From positions 1 through 35,949 of the forward strand of contig CANITF010000033.1 in the NCBI GenBank assembly GCA_947470515.1: a stretch of 35,949 bases of DNA, read 5' to 3'. Numbering within the stretch: the first letter of the stretch is position 1; the number at the start of each line of letters is the position of its first letter. The position numbers were made by a program, and so were the translations under genes. This document shows, in pieces, positions 25,093 to 29,493 of this stretch. This DNA is from Flavobacteriales bacterium (GTDB lineage Bacteria; Bacteroidota; Bacteroidia; Flavobacteriales_D; Crocinitomicaceae). The notes beneath the pieces are model-generated. The model was not told the DNA's origin. It did not search any database and saw only the letters and a program-made list of their open reading frames with translations.

Positions 25093-27909
25093 ATGCCAAA
25101 AAACACCTCTATTAAGTCAGTATTAATCATCGGAAGCGGCCCTATTGTAATTGGTCAAGCCTGTGAATTTGATTATGCTGGTTCTCAAGCAGCAAAGTCA
25201 TTACGTGAAGAAGGAATTGAAGTAACAATCATTAATTCAAATCCAGCAACTATTATGACGGACACAGTAGTCGCAGATAATATCTATTTGCAGCCGCTTG
25301 AGTCAGAAAGTATCATTGAAATTTTGAAAAAACACAAGATTGATGCTGTTCTACCTACAATGGGTGGACAAACAGCTTTGAATTTGTGCATCAAATGCGA
25401 TGAAATGGGAATTTGGGAAGAATATGGTGTGGATATTATTGGTGTTGATATCGCTGCTATTGAAATCACCGAAAATAGAGAAGCATTTAGAGAATTGATG
25501 CTAAAAATTGGGGTGGGAATGGCGCCTCAAAAGACAGCAAAATCCTTTTTAGAAGGAAAAGAAATTGCACAAGAATTTGGTTTCCCGTTGTGTATTCGTC
25601 CTTCCTATACCCTTGGTGGATCCGGAGCAGCAATTTTACATGAACCAAAAGAATTTGATAATTTACTTGAACGTGGCTTGCATCTTTCACCTATTCACGA
25701 GGTAATGATAGACAAAGCATTATTAGGGTGGAAAGAATATGAATTGGAATTGTTGCGTGATGCAAATGATAATGTTGTAATCATTTGTTCAATTGAGAAT
25801 TTTGATCCAATGGGAATACATACTGGAGATTCAATTACTGTTGCTCCAGCGATGACTTTATCTGACACTACTTTTCAACGAATGCGCGACATGGCTATCT
25901 TAATGATGCGCTCTATTGGTAATTTTGCCGGAGGTTGTAATGTTCAGTTTGCAATTTCTCCAGATGAAACAGAAGAGATTATCGCAATTGAAATAAATCC
26001 AAGAGTTTCAAGATCCTCAGCTTTGGCATCAAAAGCAACGGGTTATCCAATTGCCAAAATCGCTGCTAAACTTGCCATTGGATATCACTTAACAGAATTA
26101 AACAATCAAATCACAAAAACTACTTCAGCTTTATTTGAACCGACGTTGGATTATGTGATTGTCAAAATACCACGTTGGAACTTTAATAAATTTCCAGGGA
26201 CAGATCGTAAACTTGGACTTCAAATGAAGTCAGTTGGTGAAGTTATGGGTATCGGACGTTCTTTTCAAGAAGCATTGCAAAAAGCGTGTCAATCATTAGA
26301 GATTAATAGAAATGGTTTAGGGGCTGACGGACGTGAGTTAACAAATCAGGATGAAATATTGCACAGTTTAGAATTCGCAAGTTGGAATCGTTTGTTTCAT
26401 ATTTACGATGCGATTAAATTGGGGATTCCATTCAAGAAAATTGTTGAGAAAACAAAAATTGATATTTGGTTCCTGAAACAAATTGAAGACTTAATAAAGT
26501 TAGAAAGAAGAATTGAAAAATTCCATTTGGAGAATATTCCAAAAGAATTAATGTTTGAAGCGAAACAAAAAGGATATGCCGACCGACAAGTTGCACATCT
26601 TTTACGCTGCTTAGAATCTGAGGTTTATACCAAAAGGATAGAACAAGGTATAAATCGTGTTTATAAATTGGTTGACACGTGTGCAGGAGAATTCGCTGCA
26701 CAAACACCCTATTATTATTCAACTTTCGAATTTGAAAATGAAAGTATTAAGTCAGACAAAAAGAAAGTAATTGTTCTAGGTTCTGGTCCAAATCGTATAG
26801 GTCAGGGAATTGAGTTTGATTATAGTTGCGTTCACGGTGTTTTGGCAGCGAAAGAATGCGGTTACGAAACAATCATGATCAATTGTAATCCTGAAACTGT
26901 TTCAACAGATTTTGATACTGCAGATAAATTGTACTTTGAACCTGTATTCTGGGAACATGTTTATGATATTATCAAACACGAAAATCCAGTTGGTGTTATC
27001 GTTCAATTGGGCGGACAAACAGCACTTAAAATGGCTGAAAAATTAGAACGATACGGAATTAAAATACTTGGAACTAGCTTTGAAGCATTGGATTTAGCTG
27101 AAGACAGAGGTCGTTTTTCGAAAGTATTAGAAGAAAACAATATTCCTTTTCCAAAATATGGAATTGTAGAAAGTGCAGAACAAGCATTGGAACTTTCAGA
27201 TGAATTAGGATTTCCACTTTTAGTTCGTCCTTCGTATGTTTTGGGTGGACAGAAAATGAAAATTGTAATCAATAAAGAGGAATTGGAGCACCATGTTGTT
27301 GATATTATCAATGAAATGGGGAACAACCAAATTTTATTAGATCACTTTATTGGTGGTGCAATTGAAGCTGAAGCAGATGCAATTTGTGACGGTGAAAATG
27401 TACACATCATAGGAATCATGCAACACATAGAACCAGCGGGAATTCACTCAGGAGATTCATACGCTGTATTGCCTCCGTACAATTTAGGAGATTTTGTAAT
27501 GCAGCAAATAGAAGATATCACAGTTAAAATTGCTTTGGCATTGCGAACAGTTGGATTAATGAACATTCAATTTGCTATTAAAGATGACAAAGTTTATGTG
27601 ATTGAAGCTAATCCACGAGCATCTAGAACTGTGCCTTTCATTGCAAAAGCGTACAATGAGCCCTACGTGAATTATGCTACGAAAATAATGTTGGGCGAGA
27701 AGAAGCTTTCAGATTTCAATTTCAATCCACGTAAAGAAGGTTATGCGATTAAAATCCCAGTTTTTTCTTACGAGAAATTCCCAGATGTGAAAAAAGAACT
27801 TGGTCCAGAAATGAAATCTACTGGCGAAGCAATTCGTTTTATCAAGAATTTGAAGGATCCATTCTTTACAAAGATATACTCAGAACGAAACATGCATTTA
27901 TCTAAATAG
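25093..27909 (+). CDS. carB: carbamoyl-phosphate synthase large subunit, without the C-terminal regulatory domain
   Basis: It makes carbamoyl phosphate from bicarbonate, ammonia (supplied by CarA) and two ATP, for pyrimidines and arginine. The protein has 938 residues. The first synthetase half covers about 1-400 (GSGPIVIGQACEFDYAGSQA), an oligomerisation region about 400-550, and the second half about 553-938 (GSGPNRIGQGIEFDYSCVH, RPSYVLGGQKM). It stops where the E. coli enzyme (1073 residues) begins its MGS-like allosteric domain, so regulation by UMP or ornithine through that domain is not expected. The frame is intact and the ending looks natural. carA is not in the window. Confidence 0.95.
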   Translation: MPKNTSIKSVLIIGSGPIVIGQACEFDYAGSQAAKSLREEGIEVTIINSNPATIMTDTVVADNIYLQPLESESIIEILKKHKIDAVLPTMGGQTALNLCIKCDEMGIWEEYGVDIIGVDIAAIEITENREAFRELMLKIGVGMAPQKTAKSFLEGKEIAQEFGFPLCIRPSYTLGGSGAAILHEPKEFDNLLERGLHLSPIHEVMIDKALLGWKEYELELLRDANDNVVIICSIENFDPMGIHTGDSITVAPAMTLSDTTFQRMRDMAILMMRSIGNFAGGCNVQFAISPDETEEIIAIEINPRVSRSSALASKATGYPIAKIAAKLAIGYHLTELNNQITKTTSALFEPTLDYVIVKIPRWNFNKFPGTDRKLGLQMKSVGEVMGIGRSFQEALQKACQSLEINRNGLGADGRELTNQDEILHSLEFASWNRLFHIYDAIKLGIPFKKIVEKTKIDIWFLKQIEDLIKLERRIEKFHLENIPKELMFEAKQKGYADRQVAHLLRCLESEVYTKRIEQGINRVYKLVDTCAGEFAAQTPYYYSTFEFENESIKSDKKKVIVLGSGPNRIGQGIEFDYSCVHGVLAAKECGYETIMINCNPETVSTDFDTADKLYFEPVFWEHVYDIIKHENPVGVIVQLGGQTALKMAEKLERYGIKILGTSFEALDLAEDRGRFSKVLEENNIPFPKYGIVESAEQALELSDELGFPLLVRPSYVLGGQKMKIVINKEELEHHVVDIINEMGNNQILLDHFIGGAIEAEADAICDGENVHIIGIMQHIEPAGIHSGDSYAVLPPYNLGDFVMQQIEDITVKIALALRTVGLMNIQFAIKDDKVYVIEANPRASRTVPFIAKAYNEPYVNYATKIMLGEKKLSDFNFNPRKEGYAIKIPVFSYEKFPDVKKELGPEMKSTGEAIRFIKNLKDPFFTKIYSERNMHLSK

Positions 27910-28184
27910 TGATTGTAACGGCGAGCATATCAGGGATTTTTAGAACTGTTCTAATTGTAATCGGTGCAATTGTTTTACTGCGATTTCTCGGTCAATTGAT
28001 GATTGCAAAAAGAAACATGGAAGCGGAACGTATTCTCAATAAAAATCAACGAGAAGGTGAAGCGGAACGCCAACGCAAAATGAAAAGTTTTGGAAAGACA
28101 ACTATTCTCGGCAAACCAACTACGCAAAAAGAAAGTAAAAGTCATCCGGATATAATGGATGTTGATTACGAAGAAATAAAATGA
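27909..28184 (+). CDS. small membrane protein, DUF4834-like
   Basis: The GTG start shares its first G with the last base of the carB stop (TAGTG), a typical coupling overlap. The 91-residue protein has one transmembrane segment (about 8-28, with RTVLIVIGAIVLLRFLGQL), then a charged, helical cytoplasmic tail (MEAERILNKNQREGEAERQ). The end is DVDYEEIK. This plan matches the small DUF4834 proteins of Bacteroidota, whose function is unknown. An ATG further in would lose the membrane segment, so the GTG is preferred. Confidence 0.7.
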   Translation: MIVTASISGIFRTVLIVIGAIVLLRFLGQLMIAKRNMEAERILNKNQREGEAERQRKMKSFGKTTILGKPTTQKESKSHPDIMDVDYEEIK

Positions 28185-28306
28185 AGATTGAAGAGATGCA
28201 GCAACTGTATCTTTTTTTTATTTCTGCAATTGTAGAAAGGACTTTGCTCTTTTTTAGATACAAATTTCTTTAAAAACACAAAATTTTCTTGGAATCAACT
28301 CAACTT

Positions 28307-28329
28307 TTTTCTTAACTTATATAAGAAAA
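28307..28329 (+). promoter_or_regulatory. hairpin directly before the transposase start codon
   Basis: TTTTCTTA (28307-28314) and TAAGAAAA (28322-28329) pair around a 7-base loop, ending two bases before the ATG. In IS200 elements, a hairpin over the start region limits transposase translation. This one could act the same way or mark the left end of the element. Confidence 0.4.
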
Positions 28330-28331
28330 GC

Positions 28332-28799
28332 ATGGCTGATTCATATACAAAGCTTTATATTCAACTAGTTTTCACTGTAAAACGAAGAGAATGTTTAATT
28401 CACGCAGATTGGGAAAATGAACTTTATAAATACATTACAGGCATCATTAAGTTGAAGGATCAATCGCTCATTGCGATAAATGGAATGCCAGATCATACGC
28501 ATATGTTTATTCGAATAAAACCGACTTGTGCACTTTCTGATTTGGTGAGAGAAGTAAAAAAAGCTTCTACAAATTTTATTAATGAGAATAAATTTACAAA
28601 ACAAACTTTTAGTTGGCAAAATGGATTTGGTGCTTTTTCATACAATGAACGTCAAGTTGAGATGATTACGAATTATATCAAAGGGCAAAAAGCGCATCAC
28701 GCAAAGAAAAAATTTAAAGATGAATATATTGGATTGTTAAAGGAATTTAAGATTGATTATAAGGAAGAATATTTATTTGATTGGATCGAAGTGGAATAA
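28332..28799 (+). CDS. Y1 (IS200-like / REP-associated) transposase
   Basis: This 155-residue single-strand DNA transposase is of the HUH Y1 class. The metal-binding HUH pair is His55/His57 in PDHTHMFIRI. The nucleophile is Tyr115 in MITNYIKGQKAHH, with Gln119 four residues later, as in active Y1 enzymes. All key residues are present and the frame is intact, so the enzyme may be active. No tnpB/IscB partner is present. It stands alone, with a start-site hairpin upstream and four small hairpins just downstream. That setting fits an IS200-type element or a domesticated REP-associated transposase (RAYT). Confidence 0.92.
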   Translation: MADSYTKLYIQLVFTVKRRECLIHADWENELYKYITGIIKLKDQSLIAINGMPDHTHMFIRIKPTCALSDLVREVKKASTNFINENKFTKQTFSWQNGFGAFSYNERQVEMITNYIKGQKAHHAKKKFKDEYIGLLKEFKIDYKEEYLFDWIEVE

Positions 28800-28803
28800 T
28801 GTT

Positions 28804-28972
28804 TGACTTTTCTGAAGTCATTTTGCGGTTGTTGGATTTTTTGGGGGGGGTATTTGACTTCTCTGAAGTCATTTTACGATTATTAGATTTATTTGCTGGT
28901 TGTTGACTTCAGAGAAGTCATACAATCCACCAAAAAATTATTTGAATACACTATCGACCCCAGAGGGGTCGA
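28804..28972. repeat. cluster of four mini-hairpins after the transposase gene
   Basis: Hairpins lie at 28804-28820, 28855-28871, 28904-28920 and 28954-28972. Each has a 7- or 8-bp stem and a three-base loop. The first two (loop TCT) lie in a 51-bp direct repeat whose flanks also match. The third has the same stem with loop AGA. The fourth keeps the outer GAC/GTC and loop AGA but changes the inner stem from TTC/GAA to CCC/GGG. A run of six T and eight G lies between the first and second. Confidence 0.8.
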
Positions 28973-28980
28973 ACATTTCC

Positions 28981-29493
28981 TTATTTTATCACAAAAGCTT
29001 CAATATTTAAGACAGCAATTGTTGGATTCGTATTCGCCGTAACGGTGATTGTTTTATGTTGCTCTTTTAATTGATCAACTTTCGGGTGAAAAACAACTTC
29101 AATTTTATCTGATTTTCCGGGCATGATTGGTTTTTCAGGTTTTTTAGCGGTTGTACATCCACAACTAACATCCACTTTTTCAATGATCAACGGGTTTTTA
29201 CCAGTGTTCGTTACAATAAAAGACGCGTTATTATCCGTGTCTTCTTTTATTTTTCCAAAATTGGTTGTCATTTTATCAAAAGACATTGTTGTGGAAGATG
29301 CAGCAGCTTCTTTGGCTAAATCCTGTTCTTCCTTTTCAATTTCTTGCAAAGAAGCTTTTAAATCCTCTTCACTTCCTTCACTAGCAGCGATTGCAGATGA
29401 TACTTCTCCAGAACCAGATTTCACTGAATTTGTTTCGTTTCCACAACTTGAAATGATGAATAAACAGATTCCAAGAATAAATTGATTTTTCAT
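28981..29493 (-). CDS. DUF1573 domain lipoprotein
   Basis: This 170-residue protein starts at ATG 29493, where MKNQFILGICLFIISSC gives a lipoprotein signal with lipobox ISSC; an ATG six codons earlier would put charged residues before it. A low-complexity Ser/Glu/Ala linker (about 20-70) leads to the DUF1573 beta-sandwich (about 72-170). Its hallmark is KVDVSCGCTTAKKPEKPI. The domain is Ig-like and common in Bacteroidota envelope proteins, but its role is unknown. It lies just after the S41 protease gene on the same strand and has its own promoter-like sequence. Confidence 0.88.
   Translation of the reverse strand: MKNQFILGICLFIISSCGNETNSVKSGSGEVSSAIAASEGSEEDLKASLQEIEKEEQDLAKEAAASSTTMSFDKMTTNFGKIKEDTDNNASFIVTNTGKNPLIIEKVDVSCGCTTAKKPEKPIMPGKSDKIEVVFHPKVDQLKEQHKTITVTANTNPTIAVLNIEAFVIK

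Follow-up and report, generated by a model that had tools for sequence, protein, structure and literature searches.

Tagged mini-hairpins arrayed beside a Y1 transposase gene: a candidate REP-like system of TnpA subclass 1.2 in Flavobacteriales

The window, by which we mean the whole 35,949-nucleotide stretch of DNA analysed here from a Flavobacteriales bacterium, carries a Y1 (HuH) transposase gene, tnpA, and a DUF1573 gene convergent to it. The gap between the two is filled by four small hairpins, the first beginning 4 nt past the tnpA stop codon and the fourth ending 9 nt short of the DUF1573 stop codon. Positions are as follows, with hairpins delimited from the sequence in a 17-nt frame.

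28190..28216, + strand: terminator-like hairpin belonging to the small ORF upstream; adjoins the segment in the next line on its left
28217..28980, no strand assigned: segment of tnpA plus array, approximate extent, absent from seven congeners
28332..28799, + strand: Y1 (HuH) transposase gene tnpA, 155 aa (PF01797, E 1.1e-26)
28804..28820, + strand: hairpin 1, TGACTTT-TCT-GAAGTCA, innermost pair T.G; core 28805-28819, GACTTT-TCT-GAAGTC; 5′ tag TGTT at 28800-28803
28855..28871, + strand: hairpin 2, TGACTTC-TCT-GAAGTCA; core 28856-28870, GACTTC-TCT-GAAGTC; 5′ tag TATT at 28851-28854
28904..28920, − strand: hairpin 3, opposite in sense to 1 and 2; core 28905-28919, GACTTC-AGA-GAAGTC; 5′ tag TGTA, complement of 28921-28924
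28955..28971, − strand: hairpin 4, CGACCCC-TCT-GGGGTCG in its own sense; core 28956-28970, GACCCC-AGA-GGGGTC; 5′ tag TGTT, complement of 28972-28975

An earlier note on this DNA had described four hairpins with GAC/GTC outer pairs and AGA or TCT loops at this place, and all four are present. Its details need some correction. The inner pairs TTC/GAA, claimed for three copies, are perfect in two, as the innermost pair of hairpin 1 is T.G. Hairpins 2 and 3 differ from hairpin 4 by two compensating pair changes (T-A to C-G), so that compensation holds for two of the three inner pairs, while the third (C-G) is unchanged. The opposite loop sense ascribed to hairpin 3 is found there and likewise in hairpin 4. 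With TCT loops in hairpins 1 and 2 and AGA loops in 3 and 4, the array thus runs forward, forward, reverse, reverse, at spacings of 51, 49, and 51 bp. The four hairpins are not a chance product; first-order shuffles of the window (n = 300) contained zero such hairpins in any replicate. In single-stranded DNA folding, hairpins 2 and 3 can also form one long joint hairpin (region z −8.5). Tandem Repeats Finder (28780-29000, score 30) reported no array, and an Rfam scan of six loci returned nothing relevant, its two sub-threshold matches in L163 lying away from the hairpins. A T run and a stretch of 5-8 G (28843-28850 in the window) stand after each forward unit but the last in all three orthologs of the locus, ahead of the next hairpin.

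The tnpA protein passes the cut-off of the NCBIfam model transpos_IS200 (NF033573; 72.2 bits, cut-off 55) and fails that of REP_Tyr_transpos (34.4 bits, cut-off 80). Its signature is DHTH, WQ, and YIKGQKAHH. The tyrosine motif fits the Y---Q--HH of TnpA subclass 1.2, and the class 2 TnpA-REP signature Y---NP is absent from the protein. In the portions of Quentin et al (2018; PMC6006769) on which we draw, subclass 1.2 is defined by Y---Q--HH, DH[IV]H, WQ, and a length of about 148 aa, is low-copy and found chiefly in Cyanobacteria and Bacteroidetes, and is generally devoid of IS200-type end structures. The WQ motif and the 155 aa of the window enzyme fit this definition, while its HuH motif, DHTH in 3/3 orthologs, departs from it. 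Table 1 of that study lists the REP status of subclass 1.2 as “no”. According to the same portions, its REP search addressed GTAG- or GTGG-tagged REPs with basal stems of at least seven pairs, and tagged hairpins like those of the window would consequently be missed. The closest solved structures by sequence are the IS200-type transposases 2f4f and 2xm3, both weak matches (E 9e-4). Values of dN/dS are 0.16 (window-G005), 0.11 (window-G007), and 0.12 (G005-G007), indicating purifying selection and thus a maintained protein. Within a sample confined to the window's phylum, relatives of this protein at E ≤ 1e-25 occur in 118 of 395 genomes (about 30%).

In its own genome, the hairpin family is confined to this locus. 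The GACNNNWSWNNNGTC pattern matches 19 places in the 2.99 Mb, and the GACTTC/GACCCC-type stem occurs in the four window copies only: none of the 15 other places has the window stem, and the pairing at five of six positions seen at C9:48280 and C28:32581 is chance-like. The GACYYCNNNGRRGTC pattern, outside which hairpin 1 falls, has three matches, all in the window, which is the number expected from hairpins 2-4. Both searches covered three-base loops, and GTCCC was the sole other stem searched genome-wide; within the limits of these patterns, four copies at one locus make the GACTTC/GACCCC hairpins a local array. Within that same scope, a genome-wide REP family of such hairpins is ruled out by the count of four copies at a single place. 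The earlier note had proposed a REP/BIME-like family beside the Y1 gene and had itself named few copies in the genome as the outcome that would speak against it, which is the outcome obtained. The proposal holds in so far as oriented, REP/BIME-like hairpins do lie beside a Y1 gene, and related loci show this association again, with different stems but a conserved 5′ tag.

This recurrence was followed in two samples of loci. The order set comprises 102 tnpA relatives, namely the window, that of G007 (L031), and 100 further stretches; truncated, broken, or weak matches were left out (e.g., G037:C150, G149:C16, G007:C55, G042:C1, and short ones). The motif Y---[QE]--HH is found in 100 of the 102 proteins. 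Perfect hairpins, defined by a stem of at least 6, a loop of 3-5, and at least 3 G/C, reach 4.0 per kb in tnpA-adjacent gaps (243 in 60,467 bp), while 256 further gaps from these loci, used as controls, have a density of 0.57 per kb (31 in 54,063 bp). Taken together, the two gaps adjoining a tnpA gene are longer than a single control gap, and this count misses any hairpin that overlaps a short predicted ORF. Arrays, i.e., at least two hairpins of the same stem, accompany 29/102 genes versus 1/256 control gaps, the latter being shorter. With coding ignored, hairpins are more frequent near the gene than far from it at 77 loci, less frequent at 19, and equal at 6.

The held-out set, drawn from outside the order sample, consists of 99 loci: the 29 best matches, 60 more taken among the matches listed, roughly by rank and with some skipped, and 10 earlier ones (L033-L042) at which a previous scan had shown few or no arrays. 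Hairpins here amount to 2.6 per kb within 400 bp of tnpA (205 in 78,890 bp) versus 0.69 per kb beyond 700 bp (166 in 242,200 bp), a far zone that includes coding sequence, and arrays are found at 24/99 loci. Per-base density is higher near the gene at 51 loci and higher far from it at 39; the excess thus stems from a minority of loci, those with arrays. By the strict array rule, there is no array at 73/102 order loci and 75/99 held-out loci. Where arrays exist, neighbouring hairpins are 48-54 bp apart in 91/204 cases, and in some relatives (e.g., L064, L078, L079, and L124) the arrays flank tnpA on both sides. Loci with arrays group together on the tnpA tree (100 of the 102 rows), where the array label requires 11 changes versus 25.3 when shuffled; one clade has arrays in 11/11 members and the window's clade, which is weakly supported, in 11/14. 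The array rule used on the tree is that of the tag analysis and also yields 29 loci, not necessarily those of the gap comparison. As loci and units are related, Fisher and Wilcoxon tests overstate their independence.

Within the same subclass, the large YILNQEEHH group (L076, L110, L120, L155, and neighbours) displays no arrays by this rule near the gene, and either uses imperfect structures or none. Other hairpin types lie near the genes of other Y1 groups (L135, L136, L099, L142, L088, and L148), several of them with long stems and TTAA, TAAA, TTTA, TTCA, or TGAA loops.

Because the hairpins were found via pairing, the pairing itself is no evidence. Read in the TCT-loop sense, the window tags are TGTT, TATT, TGTA, and TGTT (TRTT/TRTA), all lacking the TAYAAA part seen in relatives. 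Across the 29 different stems of the order set, with units oriented by their pyrimidine loops, 83% have T at position −2 (0.67 bit), −3 is a purine (0.42 bit), and −4 and −1 are mostly T, while the 3′ side stays at or below 0.09 bit and 500 shuffles at or below 0.24 bit. The full T[AG]T[TG] (TRTK) precedes 48/135 units and 15/29 stems, and is found mirrored at 5 units. The held-out consensus is longer, approximately TCTAYAAAYRTK (T-C/T-T-A-Y-A-A-A-Y-R-T-K), with up to 0.79 bit per position compared to at most 0.16 bit on the 3′ side and 0.31 bit in shuffles. RT at −3,−2 is present in 63/105 held-out units (15/24 loci) versus 19 mirrored under the KNY loop rule, which was derived later with the order set plus G008/G024 before being applied to the held-out units, and in 66/114 versus 24 mirrored under the pyrimidine rule. 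KNY-ambiguous units were dropped (10/119 held-out, 8/135 discovery).

A test that does not depend on pairing starts from the tag. Matches to TAYAAANRTD, a motif derived from the held-out logo, precede a 17-mer having 5/6 or more outer pairs in 57/183 cases near tnpA (22 loci, of which 18 held-out and 4 from the order set) versus 6/198 far from it (5 loci), and shuffled 17-mers after the motif pair in less than 1%. Stems are lineage-specific, whereas the tag at the 5′ foot is conserved and the 3′ side is not. Recognition by shape, as the earlier note had suggested, is hence plausible but incomplete as a description, since the sequence at the 5′ foot is conserved as well.

In several genomes, hairpins of this kind are dispersed. 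The second Y1 gene of the window's own genome (G000:C8:1-853; L163, L002), 49% identical to tnpA, is flanked by GTCCC and GCAAATGG hairpins. GTCCC hairpins number 16 in this genome, 25 in G005, 10 in G007, and 7 in G023, and at most one in the other 22 of 26 genus genomes, with 0-2 matches for the reversed control pattern. The paralogous Y1 gene is present in exactly those four genus genomes, its G007 match being partial and adjoining GTCCC hairpins. As the four are close kin, this co-occurrence may be one event. Several GTCCC copies in the window's genome are doublets about 51 bp apart.

Outside the genus, GACYYCNNNGRRGTC matches amount to 63 in G188 and 31 in G173, and the listed places belong to two stems, GACTCC and GACCCC. 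In both genomes, one Y1 gene lies amid GACTCC hairpins, which also make up arrays at other places, and a further Y1 gene of G188 has GACCCC next to it. At L124 (G188) and L118 (G173), tnpA sits in the middle of an array of GGACTCC/CGACTCC hairpins. GACYYC hairpins also number 66 in G008, 45 in G024, 14 in G011, and 8 in G016, where the sole Y1 gene of each has other flanks; 15 stretches inspected in G008 and G024 contain mostly RTT-tagged GACCCC doublets. G004 (9 GACYYC hairpins) and G277 (12) have no Y1 match. In the 299-genome order sample, 20 genomes have at least 9 GACYYC matches, and only in G051, G173, and G188 does a Y1 gene have this kind of stem in its flanks. Fifteen of the 20 lack a Y1 match in the tnpA search, and PF01797 likewise finds no Y1 gene in 14 of these 15 (G277 and 13 of the 14 others). 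The 13 Y1-free genomes of one family (G084, G099, G113, G116, G121, G130, G144, G227, G254, G266, G268, G276, and G291) have GACYYC counts of 9-14 versus 0-8 for the reversed control; these counts are pattern matches, either tagged repeats or scattered. Equal abundance in relatives devoid of the transposase was the other finding that the earlier note had set against its own proposal, and for the GACYYC class the 15/20 rich genomes lacking a Y1 match go part of the way toward it. In such genomes, the enzyme could have been lost once the hairpins had spread, the draft could have gaps, other enzymes could have acted, or TnpA could play no part in spreading.

Comparison within the genus suggests that array and gene form one segment. 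Orthologs of tnpA occupy the same place in G005 and G007, in the latter split over two contigs with overlapping ends. Units in the TCT sense number two in the window, three in G007, and four in G005, with similar spacers, and all three arrays end in one reversed GACTTC hairpin followed by one GACCCC hairpin. The system may still be active, as the earlier note had thought possible, with tnpA under purifying selection and unit number differing between species, but recombination by itself could also produce such differences. The DUF1573 gene is present in 23/26 genus genomes and adjoins tnpA in 3/23. In 7/23, the small ORF after carB directly adjoins the DUF1573 gene with no tnpA and no such hairpin in the gap, and in the remaining 13/23 the small ORF and carB are not on the stretch examined. 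At the empty site of G002, the corresponding gap contains a terminator-like hairpin, as judged by eye. The seven uninterrupted sites suggest that gene and array probably entered together, before the three species split; loss of both from the other genus members is a possible alternative. As the flanks have diverged, the ends given for the segment are approximate.

Synonymous divergence of tnpA is 0.10-0.17 compared to 0.22-0.32 for the last 750 nt of carB, about half in each pair, which hints at later exchange of tnpA, a short gene. Against the small ORF, tnpA has less than half the synonymous divergence in the three species (28332-28796 for tnpA, versus 27157-28181 for the end of carB and the small ORF). 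In genus members without a window-type tnpA (L169, L170, L176, and L177), other hairpins lie right behind the DUF1573 gene, either GACCCC-GAT doublets or GATCCC/TTCCC repeats, as if the gap 3′ of this gene were a favoured site.

Taken together, the oriented and tagged hairpins, the gene association in two samples, the local differences in copy number, purifying selection on tnpA, the empty site, and the match of the paralog with the GTCCC hairpins favour the reading that we consider reasonably probable: a REPtron-like unit made up of a single-domain HuH/Y1 enzyme of subclass 1.2 and an array of its candidate hairpin substrates. The putative substrate would be a 17-nt palindrome with a 6-7 bp stem and a 3-5 nt loop, preceded directly at its 5′ foot by a short tag, TRTT/TRTA in the window and TCTAYAAAYRTK in many relatives. 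Such a hairpin would fold when its strand becomes single-stranded, e.g., during replication, and TnpA may then read hairpin and tag, the latter acting like the guide tetranucleotide by analogy to IS200/IS605, TnpA-REP, and IS608. The presumed catalytic tyrosine in YIKGQKAHH would cut and rejoin the strand, whereby hairpin units may be duplicated, inverted, or moved. If shape and tag matter most, this would account for stems that vary by lineage. Binding, cleavage, and mobility by TnpA are thus proposed by analogy; TnpA-REP, as described in the part of PMC8266576 consulted, cleaves tagged single-stranded hairpins.

Alternatively, recombination or a different enzyme might have spread a repeat family and changed its copy number; the hairpins would then have no functional link with the transposase, and Y1 genes would just tend to lie in repeat-rich gaps. 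Recombination alone can alter tandem copy number, as would suffice for the two, three, and four TCT-sense units with similar spacers in three close species, and genomes rich in hairpins yet free of any Y1 gene do occur. Slippage, however, does not produce inverted units, the association with the Y1 group recurs with different stems in two samples, differing stems share a common tag, and in the genus the GTCCC family occurs only with its Y1 gene. We regard this explanation as unlikely.

Plain terminators or processing hairpins between convergent genes, with the Y1 gene incidental, would account for an array on which tnpA and the DUF1573 gene converge, and the hairpin in the G002 gap is of this plain type. 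Terminator scoring marks hairpin 4 as terminator-like on the + strand (a G+C-rich stem followed by a T run), but hairpins 1 and 3 do not qualify and hairpin 2 does so only within a longer stem, of which the G run forms part. A pure terminator reading thus suits hairpin 4 alone. It leaves unexplained the lineage-specific stems in a 17-nt frame, the 48-54 bp spacing, the oriented tag, and the arrays on both sides of the gene in relatives, and we judge it rather improbable.

That the locus is a degenerate IS200-type insertion sequence with surviving subterminal hairpins is very unlikely: the protein does exceed the IS200 cut-off and gene and array apparently came to the site as one, but tnpA is intact and evolves under purifying selection, the two Y1 genes of the genome share 49% identity and there is no near-identical tnpA copy, no perfect hairpin is found in the 400 bp upstream of tnpA, the hairpins are arrayed rather than placed one per end, and no TnpB is among the four neighbouring proteins scanned.

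The REPtron-like unit remains our preferred reading of the window, and the wider pattern across relatives is more interesting than the window itself. We would give roughly even chances to a broader proposal, in which relatives of this subclass 1.2 protein would supply the enzymes for a hitherto unrecognised counterpart of REP systems: 17-nt lineage-specific hairpins would be recognized via a conserved 5′ box (TCTAYAAAYRTK, shortened to TRTT/TRTA in the lineage of the window), arrays with a period of about 51 bp would expand next to the gene, and certain lineages would have the hairpins spread through the genome, where they may outlive their enzyme. We found no paper in the open-licence literature that connects hairpins of this type with subclass 1.2. 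Should they be the substrate, an entire HuH subclass would gain a testable function and REP-like elements another type of tag. The window locus would be a handy small model, with one gene, four candidate substrates, an array length that varies in three close species, and an empty site.

Among known systems, IS200/IS605 (subclass 1.1) has a related transposase and a guide sequence 5′ of a subterminal hairpin, but occurs in several near-identical copies with a hairpin per end, whereas there is no multicopy element here and the array is 3′ only. TnpA class 3, in the portions of PMC6006769 considered, resembles the present case in that structures next to a Y1 gene carry a 5′ tag other than GTAG and reach many copies in some genomes; its CnGA tag, its tyrosine motif YV[VI][AENY]EQ, and its occurrence in other phyla are unlike the window enzyme. 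Subclass 1.2 as described in those portions agrees in signature, length, low copy number, and apparently in its presence in Bacteroidetes, yet the REP status given there is contrasted by tagged hairpin arrays at about a quarter of the loci studied here.

The REPtron (TnpA-REP/RAYT with REP/BIME) likewise places a Y1 HuH enzyme beside short, oriented palindromes that carry a tag at their 5′ foot and form clusters with both orientations, with the same hairpins dispersed in some genomes. It differs in its Y---NP signature (Y---Q--HH in the window enzyme), in its GT[AG]G tag (TRTT or TCTAYAAAYRTK here, with stems of 6-7 bp), in having inverted REPs on either side of the gene (3′ only in the window), and in its many dispersed copies, compared to four at one locus for the window family and 16 for the GTCCC family of the paralog. 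As Y---NP, the GT[AG]G tag, the two-sided flanks, and the high copy number are all missing, we do not call the system a REPtron. REPs and, at the guide position, IS200-type ends are also marked by a tag at the 5′ foot, although of other sequence, and the system in the window probably works like a REP system.
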